Source: Neotamlana nanhaiensis (GTDB lineage Bacteria > Bacteroidota > Bacteroidia > Flavobacteriales > Flavobacteriaceae). From it: a DNA stretch of 64,000 bases. The position numbers and the translations under genes were made by a program. The notes under the pieces were generated by a model. The model had not been told where the DNA came from. It made no database searches and saw only the letters and a program-made list of their open reading frames with translations. The stretch is from assembly GCF_000943555.1 (NCBI RefSeq), contig NZ_JTDV01000005.1, forward strand, positions 124,001 to 188,000, read 5' to 3'. Positions 56,467 to 61,748 of the stretch are shown one piece after another; position 1 is the first letter of the stretch, and every line of letters starts with the position of its first letter.

Positions 56467-58458
56467 ATGAAAAAAAAGCATCTTTTAGCTTCTATTGTCT
56501 TTTTAATGGTTGCTGTTATTTTTTATCTTATTTACTTGTTTTATATAGATAATAACGACAATATTAAATCCATTTATCTTATTCCTGAAGATGCTGTATA
56601 CATTATTGAAACCCAAAAACCGCTGGACGATTGGAATACTATAAGCGAAAGTCCCATTTGGAAACACCTAAACACCAATAATTATTTTAACGCGTTATCG
56701 GAGAATTTAAATGCGCTTGACACCATTTTTAAACAAGAGCAAAAGATTTTAAACTACATTGGTAATCGGGAAATTTTAATATCAGCTCATATGTATGCTC
56801 CCAAAAAATATAGCTTTTTATACGCCATAGATTTACAAAAAATAGCCAAACTAAATGTTGTTAAAAGTCATTTAAACACTTTTATAAATGATGATTTTAA
56901 GGTGAGTAAGCGGATTTATCATCAGCATGAAATTATTGAAGTTTACAGTAATAACTCCCGAGAAACACTGTACATAAGTTTTATTAAAAACCAGATGATT
57001 TTATCTTATGTGCACACCATCATTGAAGCTTCAATAGACCAATATAACGAACCTAAAATTGGTAGAGATTTGCAATTTATTGAAGTTAATAAAGCGGTAG
57101 ATGATGGTAATTTGTTTCGATTATTCTTCAACTTTAAATATCTCAATGCATTTACGAGCGTGTTTTCTAATGAAGAAACTGAATATGTAAAAACATTAAA
57201 CAATAGCTTAAACTGGAGTGGTTTTAGTTTTAACATCGATAAAAACAACAATATTGTGGCCAATGGTGTTACAAAAACCAATACCAATGCTTCAATTTAC
57301 TTGAAAGCTTTACAACAATCTGGCACCTCGAAACGCAGTGTTTTTAATATTGCACCTAAACAAACCGCTTTATACACCAGTTTTACGTTTAGTAGTTTTT
57401 CGGAGTTTTACCAAAATTTTGAAACCATTCAGCAGGAAAATCCCGAGCAATTTAAAAGTTATTTAGATGGCACCGAACAGATTGAAAACTTTTTAAACAT
57501 TAATTTAAAAGAACATTTTTTTAGCTGGATTGATGATGAAATGGCACTGCTTCAAATGCAATCTACTGTAAGCCATTCGACTAAAGATGTGGCTCTTGTT
57601 TTAAAAACTAAAGATGTTGATGATGCCAAATACCGTTTAAACTTCATATTAAATCAAATAAAAAAACGCAGTCCCGTAAAGTTTAAAACGGTTAATTATT
57701 TAGGACACGACATAAATTATTTATCTATAAAGAGCTTTTTTAAAATTATTCTTGGAAATTTATTTAACACCATTGAAAAACCGTATTACACCTTAATCGA
57801 CGATTTTGTTGTTTTTAGTAATAACCCTAACACTTTAAAAACCATAATTAAAAGCTACACCGAAAGGGAAACCTTGGCATTTTCTGATGATTTTACCGAT
57901 TTCAGCGACCATTTTAACAGCAGAACATCGGTATTTACGTATGCGAATACGCCATATTTATACAACAACCTTTATCATTTTGCTGATGCTTCAACGAAAC
58001 AAAAACTAAAAGAAAATAAAGATTATTTTATTTGTTTCCCGCAATTTGGTTTCCAACTATCGCCTGAAGATGACTTTTTTGAAAGCCGCATCGCCATTAG
58101 TTATCAAGACGTTGATTTGGTTAAAGAAAAGTACCAAATTTTAAGTAACACGACAAAAAACCAAACCAAAGCAAAAGTTGAAAAAGAGCTAACTAACGCC
58201 ATGCCTGTTGATGCGGTTTTTAGCATTCCTGAAATTTATCCAACCGATTTAACCGCCGACTCATTTAGTAGAAAACACAGCAACGGCAATACCCGTTTTA
58301 CAGTTGAATTAAAAGATGGTAAACCACATGGCAAATACCAAAGTTATTACAAAAATGGTGCTTTAAAATTATCGGGGAAATATAAAAATGGTGCACAAAG
58401 TGGTACTTGGCGCGCCTATAATTTTAACAAGGATGTGGTTTTAAAGAAACGGTTTTAA
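56467..58458 (+). CDS. Membrane-anchored protein with C-terminal YwqK-type repeats
   Basis: A 663-residue protein, 3 bp after the carboxyltransferase stop. One N-terminal transmembrane anchor (about residues 5-27) is followed by a large extracytoplasmic part that includes IPEDAVYIIETQKPLDDWNT (about 36-55), loosely like DUF3352. The last 50 residues carry two YwqK-type units (KDGKPHGKYQSYYKNGALKLSGKY and NGAQSGTWRAY). The function is unknown. Its 3' end overlaps the end of the convergent VIT-domain gene by four bases. Confidence 0.7.
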   Translation: MKKKHLLASIVFLMVAVIFYLIYLFYIDNNDNIKSIYLIPEDAVYIIETQKPLDDWNTISESPIWKHLNTNNYFNALSENLNALDTIFKQEQKILNYIGNREILISAHMYAPKKYSFLYAIDLQKIAKLNVVKSHLNTFINDDFKVSKRIYHQHEIIEVYSNNSRETLYISFIKNQMILSYVHTIIEASIDQYNEPKIGRDLQFIEVNKAVDDGNLFRLFFNFKYLNAFTSVFSNEETEYVKTLNNSLNWSGFSFNIDKNNNIVANGVTKTNTNASIYLKALQQSGTSKRSVFNIAPKQTALYTSFTFSSFSEFYQNFETIQQENPEQFKSYLDGTEQIENFLNINLKEHFFSWIDDEMALLQMQSTVSHSTKDVALVLKTKDVDDAKYRLNFILNQIKKRSPVKFKTVNYLGHDINYLSIKSFFKIILGNLFNTIEKPYYTLIDDFVVFSNNPNTLKTIIKSYTERETLAFSDDFTDFSDHFNSRTSVFTYANTPYLYNNLYHFADASTKQKLKENKDYFICFPQFGFQLSPEDDFFESRIAISYQDVDLVKEKYQILSNTTKNQTKAKVEKELTNAMPVDAVFSIPEIYPTDLTADSFSRKHSNGNTRFTVELKDGKPHGKYQSYYKNGALKLSGKYKNGAQSGTWRAYNFNKDVVLKKRF

Positions 58459-61400
58459 ATTTCAAGTTTTGCCACTATTTGTTTATCTCTTGGTTTTGTT
58501 AACCTAATAATTTTTATATTTTTTGTTTCATTGGGTTTATTATAGTTTTTAAACATAGTGACTTTCATAAACGTTGGATTTTCCAATTTTTGGTATCTAT
58601 CTCCATAATAATTTACTTTTATAAAGTAAGCACCTTTTTTGGCTTCTTTTAAAGTATATTCTTCGGGTCCGAAACCTTGTGTCATGTCTTGAGATAATCG
58701 TCCGCCCAATTTAGTCTTATTATTACTAAAGTAGCATTCTTCTAAATCTGGATCTATAACATGTAAATCGATATCTGTGTCGTTATGATTCCAGTCAATA
58801 ACAATTCTAACATCAAAAGTAGTTTTAGTTTCAAACTTCTTTTTAAAATTACTATTATCAATATTTGGGAAATGTTGCAATACATTATTCAATTCATTTT
58901 TAGCTATAGTTTGCATACCGCTAAACTTTCTTCTATTGCTATTGCTTTTGTATACGTTTTCGTTAACGATATTCTGTAATAGTTTAAAAGCTTGTTGCTC
59001 TAAACCTATTTCTTTATAAACCAAAGCTAAGTCTCTGTAAGATTGCGTGTCTTCAGGTCTTAATTTTAAAACTTGGGCATACACAAAACTTGCTAAACCA
59101 TAATTATTTCTTTCTTCAAGCTTATACCCCAAAACGCGCATTAATTCGTAATTATCATAATCTACTTCGGCTATATTAGTTAAGATTTTTAATTCGTAAT
59201 CTCGATTATTCCATTTTTTAAAATAATCATGAACATCAATATAAAACGCTGGTAAGCGTCCGTAAGTTTCTCTCTGAATTAAATAAATTTGATATGCATC
59301 GTTTACAGAAGTAGCTTTTTCAAGAGCTTTTATATATGGTTCATTGTTTATAACCGTTTTTACTTTTAGTTTACCTCTATATTTGTTAACGGTATTGGTA
59401 TTACTTGAACTTTCTTCATGATTACTAGATGGACTGAAATTACTCCATTTTGTTGAAATAACAACTACTCCATTTGCTGCTCTACTGCCATAAATTGCAG
59501 CCGCAGAGATATCTTTAATAACTGTAACACTTTCAATATCATTGATATTAACAAAGTCATCAATATTACCATTTACAGGCATACCATCTACTACAAACAA
59601 GGGTTGACCTCCATTACTCAAAGAAGCTGAACCACGAATTATTATATTAGGACTTTGCCCCGGCATTCCTGAAGTATTTGTTATTTGAACTCCTGCAACT
59701 TTACCTTGGATAGCTTGAGCTACATTTGTAAAACCATTACTACTCAACGATTCGTTTTTTATAACAGTTACCGAACCAGTTACAGAGCTCTTGCGTTGAG
59801 TGCCATAGCCCATTACCACCACTTCATCCAATGCTGCAGAATCCTCTTTCATGGAAATATTTATTGTATAGCCATCTTGCACAGTTGTTTCTAAAGTTTG
59901 ATAACCAATGTAACTAAAAACCAAAGTAGAACCTGGAATTGCATCTATAGCGTATTTTCCATCAAAATCTGTCGCAACACCAATACTAGTTCCTCTTATT
60001 ATAACGTTAACACCTGGCAGTGGTAAACCAGATTCATCTGAGACAACACCAGAAATATTCCCGCCTGAACTGTTAGATCTATTTACTTGCTCTTCACGTG
60101 TTACAATATTTTTATGCTGTTTTCTATTTACAATACTATTGTATTCTTCAAGTAATTCTTCTGGTGGCGTAATATTATATTTTATATAATCCCAGACTGT
60201 TTCAAGCACAATTAAAGAGGTAAAATCGCTAACCAAATTATAAGATTTATTGTGCTTAATTATTTCATCTTTATTCAAAGTGTTATCTTCTTCGAGAGCT
60301 TTTAACTTCTTCTGAGCCCAAATTCGTTTAACCAAATTGTTATTGACTTCTGGAGTAATCTGAAATTGAATTTTTTGAATAGTATCATTGCCGTAACCAA
60401 ATTTTAGAACAACAGAATCGTTTACTTTAAAGTTTTTTGCAGTAAAAGAAAAGTCGTTGTCTACTGAAAAAGGTTTATTTGGGTAAGCTTCTAAATGTTT
60501 ATTAGATGATTGAAAACCTAAAAACTTGAACGATTGGTATTTTACCTTTTCTAGAGCTTCATTAACTGTAGTGGTTTTAAGGTTAATGTATTTTCCTTTG
60601 GTTGATTCGGAAATATTATTCAATTCGGAATGATTTGCCTTTAAAATAGAGTTTACAACAAAAACAGGTGCTATGGTATTAACAATTAAATCACTTAAAT
60701 TTTTCATTCCATCTGAAAACATTAATATTTCATCTGAAGAATTTTGCAGAAATAAACTTGCGTAAGATGTTCCGCCATCGTAAATAATATGAGTTAGCTC
60801 GCTTTTTAAAGCTTCCCATTTACCACTTTTAATGTGATACGTTTTATCAAGTAAAATACTGTTACTAAAGGTAATTAACTTAACATTTACTTCATTTAAA
60901 TAATTTAGGTATGCGTTTAAAAACTTAAGTTCATTTTCTAAGTCTCTAGATTTCATTGAGAGTGAAGCATCCCAATATATTGTGATAGATTTCGGCTTTT
61001 CTCTTTTTCTTTTTTCTGTTTTTAAAGTTTTGTAGAAATAAAAATAGTCTTCATCTGCAATTAATTTAGTGCTCTTATAATTTTGAGGTATTTTTATTAA
61101 CAACGATGTTTCTGGAGTGTAATTATTACTCTCAAATTCGGCAGAATAATTACTGTTTATTGTATTGAATTTAAAATTACTTAAACGGCCTTTAGTTAAC
61201 TCTGGCTTTAACTTTTGATTTAAAATGTCCATCTTAAAGGCAAAGTGATCTAACTTCTTTTTAAACTCCAAAGGCAAATGAAAATAATGCGCGCCTTCAC
61301 TTAAAATAAGCTCTTGTTCGTAAGCTAAAACCACACGTTTATGGCCGTTCGCAGGAATAGGATAAATTCTTGCTTTGTAGTTATTACCAGTACCTTTTTC

Positions 61401-61748
61401 TAATAAAACAGGATCAACACCTCTCCTAACAACAGCCTCGAAAGCAACTCTACCTTGTTCCTTTTCAACAACTACAGCTTCTCGTAATTTATTGTTGACT
61501 TCGAGTGCCAACCGAGATACATGCTGATTTTCTCCTAAAGGAAATGCCAATTCGCCTTCTAAAACAGCATTTGTGGGGTTGTAGAACAGCATATCGTAAG
61601 TTGTTGTTGCTATGTTTCCTACTACCTCGACTTCTATATCTAGTGATGAAATGCCTAACTTATCCTCTCCGACATTTATAGTTGGTATACTTTGCGAAAA
61701 TGCAATTGCAGATATAAACACAAATGTTAATTTTAAAAACGTTTTCAT
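58455..61748 (-). CDS. VIT-vWA protein fused to SusC-like plug, TPR and DUF2135
   Basis: A 1097-residue exported protein with an exceptional domain order. Signal peptide about 1-18, ending AFSQ; VIT domain about 20-150 (YDMLFYNPTNAVLEGELAFPL); vWA domain about 255-400 with ITIYWDASLSMKSRD, which resembles the MIDAS motif DxSxS (D, S and S are present). A CarboxypepD_reg-like domain spans about 563-640 (SGVVSDESGLPLPGVNVI). A SusC-type plug spans about 644-766 (VVMGYGTQRKSSVTGS, FVVDGMPVNG, AAIYGSRAANGVVVIST). TPR-like repeats follow at about 860-960, and DUF2135/YfaP-like about 983-1097 (VIDWNHNDTDIDLHVIDPD). No TonB barrel is present. It is probably surface-exposed or periplasmic; the ligand is unknown. 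Confidence 0.85.
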   Translation of the reverse strand: MKTFLKLTFVFISAIAFSQSIPTINVGEDKLGISSLDIEVEVVGNIATTTYDMLFYNPTNAVLEGELAFPLGENQHVSRLALEVNNKLREAVVVEKEQGRVAFEAVVRRGVDPVLLEKGTGNNYKARIYPIPANGHKRVVLAYEQELILSEGAHYFHLPLEFKKKLDHFAFKMDILNQKLKPELTKGRLSNFKFNTINSNYSAEFESNNYTPETSLLIKIPQNYKSTKLIADEDYFYFYKTLKTEKRKREKPKSITIYWDASLSMKSRDLENELKFLNAYLNYLNEVNVKLITFSNSILLDKTYHIKSGKWEALKSELTHIIYDGGTSYASLFLQNSSDEILMFSDGMKNLSDLIVNTIAPVFVVNSILKANHSELNNISESTKGKYINLKTTTVNEALEKVKYQSFKFLGFQSSNKHLEAYPNKPFSVDNDFSFTAKNFKVNDSVVLKFGYGNDTIQKIQFQITPEVNNNLVKRIWAQKKLKALEEDNTLNKDEIIKHNKSYNLVSDFTSLIVLETVWDYIKYNITPPEELLEEYNSIVNRKQHKNIVTREEQVNRSNSSGGNISGVVSDESGLPLPGVNVIIRGTSIGVATDFDGKYAIDAIPGSTLVFSYIGYQTLETTVQDGYTINISMKEDSAALDEVVVMGYGTQRKSSVTGSVTVIKNESLSSNGFTNVAQAIQGKVAGVQITNTSGMPGQSPNIIIRGSASLSNGGQPLFVVDGMPVNGNIDDFVNINDIESVTVIKDISAAAIYGSRAANGVVVISTKWSNFSPSSNHEESSSNTNTVNKYRGKLKVKTVINNEPYIKALEKATSVNDAYQIYLIQRETYGRLPAFYIDVHDYFKKWNNRDYELKILTNIAEVDYDNYELMRVLGYKLEERNNYGLASFVYAQVLKLRPEDTQSYRDLALVYKEIGLEQQAFKLLQNIVNENVYKSNSNRRKFSGMQTIAKNELNNVLQHFPNIDNSNFKKKFETKTTFDVRIVIDWNHNDTDIDLHVIDPDLEECYFSNNKTKLGGRLSQDMTQGFGPEEYTLKEAKKGAYFIKVNYYGDRYQKLENPTFMKVTMFKNYNKPNETKNIKIIRLTKPRDKQIVAKLEI

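Follow-up and report, generated by a model that had tools for sequence, protein, structure and literature searches.

The usual view of TonB is that it serves transporters of the outer membrane. Among these, the SusC/RagA transporters, such as Bt1763 and RagA, carry a carboxypeptidase-regulatory-like domain (CPD), a Ton box and a plug, in this order, in addition to a beta-barrel. Passages of a study of Bt1763 gave its Ton box as DEVVVTG; when this box was deleted or replaced, growth was impaired as it is with a transporter that does not function. The same passages identified PF13715 as the N-terminal extension (NTE) preceding the Ton box (PMC7782687). Two further groups of described proteins are close. 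The first comprises the inter-alpha-inhibitor (ITIH) heavy chains and bacterial VIT-vWA proteins, including the sortase targets of TIGR03788. The second comprises the vWA force transducers and PorE, which parts of another report present as periplasmic proteins bearing vWA domains or CPDs, with TPR neighbors, that are worked by TonB/Tol-type motors, with a suggested role for the CPD in contacting TonB (PMC12204202). In the present study, a gene combining features of these groups was analyzed. It lies at 58455-61748 on the reverse strand of a window of 64,000 nucleotides from Neotamlana nanhaiensis (contig NZ_JTDV01000005.1, positions 124,001 to 188,000), and its product, judged from the sequence, may be a secreted, most likely periplasmic VIT-vWA-TPR-DUF2135 protein with a handle for docking to TonB, a reading to which we give about an even chance.

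The window protein shares the CPD (NTE), Ton box and plug with the SusC/RagA transporters, but it lacks their beta-barrel. It shares the VIT-vWA half with the ITIH heavy chains and the TIGR03788 proteins, but its CPD-plug, TPR and DUF2135 parts are extra. The vWA force transducers are tethered by an inner-membrane helix with an SHLS motor motif, and the word VIT is absent from the text that describes them; in PorE, the CPD is combined with CpoB-, TolB- and Pal-like parts (PMC12204202). Within the titles and abstract openings of the open-licence literature, no account of VIT-plug fusions, plug-bearing alpha-2-macroglobulin (A2M) proteins or split TonB transporters was found, and the accessible portions of PMC3387259 and PMC8459023 do not treat the VIT-plug family.

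The gene was a single uninterrupted open reading frame (ORF) of 1097 residues, whose coordinates and strand agreed exactly with those of the original prediction, which had been made from the DNA letters and had placed VIT, vWA, CPD, plug, TPR and DUF2135 in one polypeptide without a barrel. This architecture was confirmed, the order being signal peptide, VIT, vWA, SusC-type CPD, Ton box, plug, TPR-like helices and DUF2135 (Table 1). In Pfam, the VIT domain (74.7 bits, cut-off 26.5), CarbopepD_reg_2 at residues 565-645 (71.7, cut-off 32.2), Plug at 653-761 (69.6, cut-off 23.9) and DUF2135 (PF09906; 38.1, cut-off 22) all exceeded their thresholds. The vWA domain was sub-threshold (VWA_2, 19.5 versus 27) but clear by its fold and by the residues of its metal ion-dependent adhesion site (MIDAS). 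The TPR was also sub-threshold (TPR_11, 13.9 versus 26.8), the region being helical in the structural model, with TPR chains among the Foldseek rows. The predicted SusC-type plug signature was borne out by NCBIfam TIGR04057 (53.0, above the cut-off of 46.2). The match to the SusC model TIGR04056 was confined to model positions 2-243 of 981 (280.9 bits, cut-off 368.25), which corresponds to the CPD, Ton box and plug and indicates that the barrel is absent. Pfam, NCBIfam and the model likewise revealed no TonB-dependent beta-barrel in the protein, the plug being followed by TPR-like helices and DUF2135, so the claim that the plug gates no pore of its own in cis was upheld. The match to TIGR03788 (marine sortase target) was partial (62.7 bits, cut-off 551.65). 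By eye, the signal peptide was the sole long hydrophobic stretch, and no lipobox, type IX secretion system (T9SS) sorting end or membrane anchor was seen in the protein. An assembly frameshift or a fusion of ORFs, which the original prediction had named as a possible source of error, was ruled out because orthologues of the same architecture recur in many independent assemblies.

An AlphaFold model of the whole chain, which had been proposed as a check, was made with 25 sequences (mean predicted local distance difference test score, pLDDT, 78; predicted template modeling score, pTM, 0.71). Residues 29-541 matched ITIH heavy chain 1 (6fpy) over 475 residues (VIA-align Z 22.5, root-mean-square deviation 7.0), and Foldseek gave E 2.3e-22 for this half. 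Moreover, the vWA domain matched a known vWA domain over 150 residues (Z 14.8), and the MIDAS residues D260, S262, S264 and T327 were invariant in 26 aligned members, with D346 present in at least 90%. The CPD matched the SusC NTE 9hfj (Z 15.3) and the plug matched the Bt1763 plug 6z9a (Z 13.4, 44% identity), the CPD-plug part being modeled with moderate to low confidence (block means 27-74). The pLDDT fell below 50 at residues 637-658, a stretch containing the Ton box, fitting a box that would be exposed and flexible.

The evidence for docking came from an alignment of 58 members, namely the window protein, 56 loci and a paralogue added from locus L037. Seven of the 63 loci were left out: L031 (truncated frame), L039, L077, L079 and L081 (duplicates or near-duplicates), L047 (cut by a contig end) and L108 (broken frame). 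The backbone was conserved, and a variable slot lay at residues 536-805, between the vWA linker and the TPR. With Pfam matches accepted at E up to 0.01, the slot held a CPD in 39 of the 58 members (38 by a second CPD model), Plug in 33 and TonB_C in 9, each further family being found in one to eight members. A Ton-box pattern, chosen after the sequences had been inspected, matched 43 of the 58 slots, 42 in place and one off-place in the TonB_C-type slot of L080. Shuffled slots gave a mean of 1.0 and a maximum of 4 matches of 58 in 200 shuffles, and 47,111 backbone residues gave two. L105 and the L037 paralogue were left out of the backbone tree accompanying this count, as was L198, which had no C-terminal model match. 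Overall, 42 slots had the Ton box in place, nine had TonB_C instead, one had a near-variant box (LDEVLI, in the L037 paralogue) and six had neither. Apart from the off-place match in L080, TonB_C and the box were mutually exclusive, and when five TonB_C slots were scanned singly, four exceeded the curated Pfam cut-off and L043 fell below it. The slot so appears to accept either half of the contact between TonB and the Ton box.

The box was also the best conserved element of the module. In the 34 VIT modules with a plug, it had the highest mean conservation of ten segments (0.82 versus 0.34-0.68), with E642 and V643 identical in 100% and L640 and V644 in 97%. Furthermore, the Ton box was retained without a full plug in L035, L036 and L091, where the CPD is present, and in L106 and L110, where it is absent. 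In the backbone trees, both computed without L109, all nine TonB_C members fell into one group of 13 rows, together with two empty and two plug/box slots, and, given the outgroup chosen by the author, the TonB_C slot comes out as derived from box-bearing ancestors. Within this group, a plug or plug remnant in L084 and L087 precedes a box-like LDEIVV, an order that is either reversed or a remnant of an acidic linker before TonB_C.

Neither the Ton box LDEVVV nor the alternative TonB_C slot had been noticed in the original prediction, and together they suggest TonB, not a barrel, as the partner. Docking to TonB is favored because the slot keeps or swaps one contact, from either side. According to this reading, the Ton box at residues 640-645, lying exposed, would be bound by the C-terminal domain of a TonB protein, the flanking CPD and plug would be pulled on, and the ExbBD-TonB motor would then tether the VIT-vWA half, position it or work it mechanically. 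A ligand may bind at the MIDAS site of this half. In the sister clade with TonB_C in the slot, the protein itself would bind the Ton boxes of other proteins. The binding of TonB, the location, the energized function and the ligand of the window protein are all inferred here.

Several observations weigh against docking to TonB. The six slots with neither box nor TonB_C, together with 20 further members from the phylum, in which a box was read in about six (one a variant) and TonB_C in none, indicate that the backbone can do without the handle. The gene is patchy, with relatives at E up to 1e-63 in 38 of the 396 other genomes of the family Flavobacteriaceae (a hand count of rows), some of them partial or broken, and it is absent from all three same-genus genomes. 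An MG2 protein of the window genome keeps a plug without a box by the pattern, so plugs can persist boxless. The identity of TonB_C rests on Pfam, and no TonB structure was among the 50 structure matches listed for the model of the TonB_C-type member L051. In nine of ten box-type pairs, the nonsynonymous rate (dN) was higher in the box and plug than in VIT. Finally, no SusC or dedicated partner was recognized among the recurrent neighbor clusters, the neighbors not having been searched individually.

The history of the module bears on whether the slot is used at all. The module tree was built from the 34 plug-bearing VIT modules, L084 and L109 being excluded, together with other modules in which 150 or more query residues were aligned; four long rows were dropped from the topology tests. 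The rows L136 and L141, labeled SusC, are non-SusC frames of 571 and 663 residues that are nobody's best SusC match, and they were omitted from the topology tests and the conservation analysis. The window module grouped with those of the Flaviramulus and Wocania orthologues (67% identity to L026, versus 54% to the best SusC in the set), in a group of eight rows that also held two paralogues from L109 (Shimodaira-Hasegawa-like approximate likelihood ratio test, SH-aLRT, 100). The recent transfer suggested originally was accordingly not supported, and a recent one-off capture of a plug by the window gene was ruled out, since the module is common to these orthologues. A single clade for the modules of the 12-row backbone clade of the window protein was rejected by the approximately unbiased (AU) test (P = 2.2e-5), which indicates that modules have been exchanged in the family. 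The modules of L037, L053, L088 and L097 were 69-74% identical to a SusC of genome G268, and the module of genome G197 was 70% identical to a SusC of its own genome, against 55% to the module of its backbone sister. A clade of the L092 and L093 modules was not rejected (AU test, P = 0.73), so the replacement in G197 rests on these identities, and it may have been partial.

Such a history would be compatible with the slot being neutral or near-neutral filler, a disordered linker that repeatedly recombines with the many SusC genes of a genome, the SusC N-termini having no function. The slot is indeed hypervariable and sometimes empty, and the donor pool is large, with 24 over-threshold SusC matches in the window genome, or 23 if one of its contigs, C2, is a doubled replicon. 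Along this contig (377,790 bases), matches recur at a fixed distance of 188,895 bases, exactly half its length; it is probably a circular replicon assembled twice, and gene counts are thereby inflated. Constraint on the module argues against filler. In L094/L101, a pair with a plug and unsaturated synonymous divergence (dS), dN/dS was 0.02 for VIT, 0.22 for the CPD and 0.27 for the box and plug. Over the ten box-type pairs, it was 0.03-0.49 for the box and plug versus 0.00-0.06 for VIT, with dS near saturation in most, and in L088/L097, counter to the trend, the box and plug evolved more slowly than VIT. The L038/L041 pair is of the TonB_C type, and its slot columns are not comparable. Purifying selection thus acts on the module, but in general less strongly than on the backbone; of the strong selection originally proposed for a plug almost as conserved as in SusC, constraint as such was borne out. 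Filler also accommodates poorly the fold matches of CPD and plug, made on a model of moderate confidence there, the outlasting of the plug by the box in several members and the similar pattern on the unrelated A2M backbone. In addition, TonB_C is rarer in the window genome (seven matches, including a duplicated one), yet it is the contact partner of the Ton box. We consider filler unlikely, although it is the strongest of the alternatives.

According to the next alternative, which the original prediction had raised, the plug folds in trans into the barrel of another gene and gates or seals it, the VIT-vWA half being a periplasmic cargo or sensor. A related arrangement was found in the A2M family. 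In Aureibaculum flavum (L051:420-7747), a gene for a CPD and a SusC-like barrel without a plug (P0002) is followed, with an overlap of one base, by an A2M/TED gene (P0003) whose product bears a Ton box and a plug, and a TonB_C-type VIT gene is next in line. The two products matched complementary parts of one SusC model, P0002 at 217-980 (146 bits) and the A2M protein at 59-262 (134 bits), both below the cut-off of 368, and P0002 matched the SusC BT2264 over 499-897 (E 2.4e-13). Full-length A2M relatives occurred in 14 of 397 family genomes by a hand count of rows. Across the 15 loci formed by these full-length matches (L235-L248) and L051, with a partial match at a contig end in genome G105 left out, the A2M gene always began -1 to +5 bp after the SusC-like ORF. 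In Pfam, these 15 ORFs had a CPD in every case, Plug in none and PF00593 in one, below the cut-off, so the evidence that they encode barrels comes from the matches of P0002 and from their resemblance to it, L245 and L248 being weakly similar. With a plug model constructed for this study, every one of the 15 A2M proteins scored 69-145 bits and no barrel ORF exceeded 4.1 bits; Pfam Plug was present in all three A2M proteins checked. The pairs are apparent split TonB-dependent transporters by sequence; the FhuA plug and barrel, expressed separately, reportedly restored transport. P0003 matches also lie in frames of about 800-970 residues in many family genomes.

These pairs make a plug in trans credible as a design, and most plug columns conserved in SusC are also kept in the VIT modules. 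However, no such barrel was found in the window genome. All 24 over-threshold SusC matches span essentially the whole model; among the 56 of 70 candidates scored, there was no orphan SusC barrel, nor any match to the barrel part alone in a plugless frame, and a search with P0002 gave only CPD or weak barrel matches. In the 26 genomes with a box-type VIT gene, with at most 28 candidates scored per genome, no P0002-like match exceeded 91 bits except one in G345 (232 bits, in a frame of 1063 residues). This search also covered three genomes whose VIT gene is of the TonB_C type; one of them (G183) has a split pair, elsewhere in the genome. Moreover, the VIT gene was present in 3 of the 14 genomes with the split pair, an association that is not significant (Fisher P = 0.14), and several members lost the plug while keeping the box. 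A trans role in the window genome is thus rather improbable, less so as a design than for this protein.

A further alternative, to which we assign a low probability, is that the free Ton box is a decoy or negative regulator that competes with real transporters for TonB. The sequence data agree with it as they do with docking, and the gene is single-copy with a box predicted to be exposed, but a decoy would not account for so large and conserved a VIT-vWA-TPR-DUF2135 backbone or for the presence of TonB_C in the slot of other members. An adhesive or surface module, as also suggested originally, would suit the intact MIDAS of the vWA domain and the ITIH-like fold, but it is very improbable, as no evidence for adhesive use was found, the lipobox, sorting end and membrane anchor were missing by eye, and the compartment in which Ton boxes and TonB_C domains function is the periplasm.

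Docking to TonB gains context from other non-transporter backbones of the same bacteria, since YfbK-type vWA, A2M and M56 proteins also bear CPD-Ton box-plug or TonB_C parts; their backbones are different, and the A2M operon encodes a barrel-like ORF next door. The A2M protein of the window genome (L113:2672-9028, contig C6; 2118 residues) has a CPD and the Ton box LDEVVVVGYG before its A2M domain, and no Pfam Plug was found in it. The A2M proteins of G197 and G220 have CPD, box and plug, and that of G234 has CPD and box, the plug being absent by eye; these four proteins were picked among the matches rather than sampled. In the Lacinutrix/Bizionia-type loci, genes adjoining the VIT gene bear related modules on other backbones, and the modules of neighbors group in the tree. 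In L035, L036 and L033 (Bizionia and relatives), three consecutive genes each carry a CPD and a Ton box, encoding a YfbK-type vWA protein, a VIT-type protein and a short CPD-plug-TPR-DUF2135 protein. Also in the window genome, an M56 (BlaR1-type) protein (L204:1936-4131, contig C12) has two TonB C-terminal stretches in tandem, and the MG2 protein (L249:6333-8753, contig C10; 806 residues) has a plug of 24.5 bits (cut-off 23.9) and no box by the pattern.

With regard to distribution, residues 1-560 of the window protein matched something in 88 of the 397 family genomes, and the VIT-vWA half was matched at one place only in the window genome. Named records added 28 loci, including ones from Flaviramulus, Wocania, Lacinutrix, Bizionia, Aquimarina, Winogradskyella and Psychroserpens. 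Across the phylum, the VIT-vWA alignment matched 76 of 395 genomes, exceeding 300 bits in 33, its own included. Of the 20 further phylum members, 17 came from outside the family and three from a single genus inside it. Pfam matches at E up to 0.1 gave Plug in five of them (two above the cut-off), a CPD in five and TonB_C in none; some of their slots resemble another receptor-plug class by eye, with at most weak Plug matches. The recurrent neighbor clusters of the VIT gene included sppA (Pfam S49 in the window), menaquinone genes and acyl-CoA carboxylase, the last two named by eye. In the window, a convergent gene for a DUF3352 protein (56467-58458, forward strand) shares its last four bases with the end of the VIT gene.

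Table 1. Features of the window protein and their positions in the window.
Feature	Residues	Position	Strand	Basis or remark
Whole ORF, VIT-vWA-CPD-Ton box-plug-TPR-DUF2135	1-1097	58455..61748	-	1097 residues
N-terminal signal peptide	1-19	61692..61748	-	by eye: helix 2-16, end AFSQ
ITIH-heavy-chain-like half (VIT, vWA and linker)	29-541	60126..61664	-	VIA-align to 6fpy; Foldseek
VIT domain	33-143	61320..61652	-	Pfam PF08487
vWA domain, with MIDAS D260, S262, S264, T327, D346	about 250-406	60531..61001	-	fold and residues
Variable slot, here CPD, Ton box, plug and linkers	536-805	59334..60143	-	family alignment
CarboxypepD_reg-like (SusC NTE) domain	565-645	59814..60056	-	Pfam and fold match
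Ton box LDEVVV	640-645	59814..59831	-	sequence; box identity from passages of PMC7782687
SusC-type plug	653-761	59466..59792	-	Pfam and fold match
TPR-like helical region	about 805-960	58869..59336	-	model helices; Pfam TPR below cut-off
DUF2135	1036-1082	58503..58643	-	Pfam PF09906

Taken more widely, and more tentatively than for the window protein itself, it is possible that in Bacteroidota the parts of the TonB machine (Ton box and plug, barrel, and TonB_C) are spread over separate periplasmic and outer-membrane polypeptides with ITIH-like VIT-vWA and A2M backbones, some of which would form split transporters, with a TonB_C-type VIT protein beside the pair in Aureibaculum, and others, such as the window protein, TonB clients outside transport, with the slot rebuilt repeatedly from SusC genes or from TonB. 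If the operon that pairs A2M with a SusC-like barrel lacking a plug is what it appears to be, it would be a natural two-gene transporter in which the movement of the plug could be studied with separable parts. If one slot does take either the Ton-box or the TonB side, non-transport work by TonB would become directly testable, and a motor could be assigned to the VIT-vWA and A2M proteins of bacteria, the roles of which are obscure.

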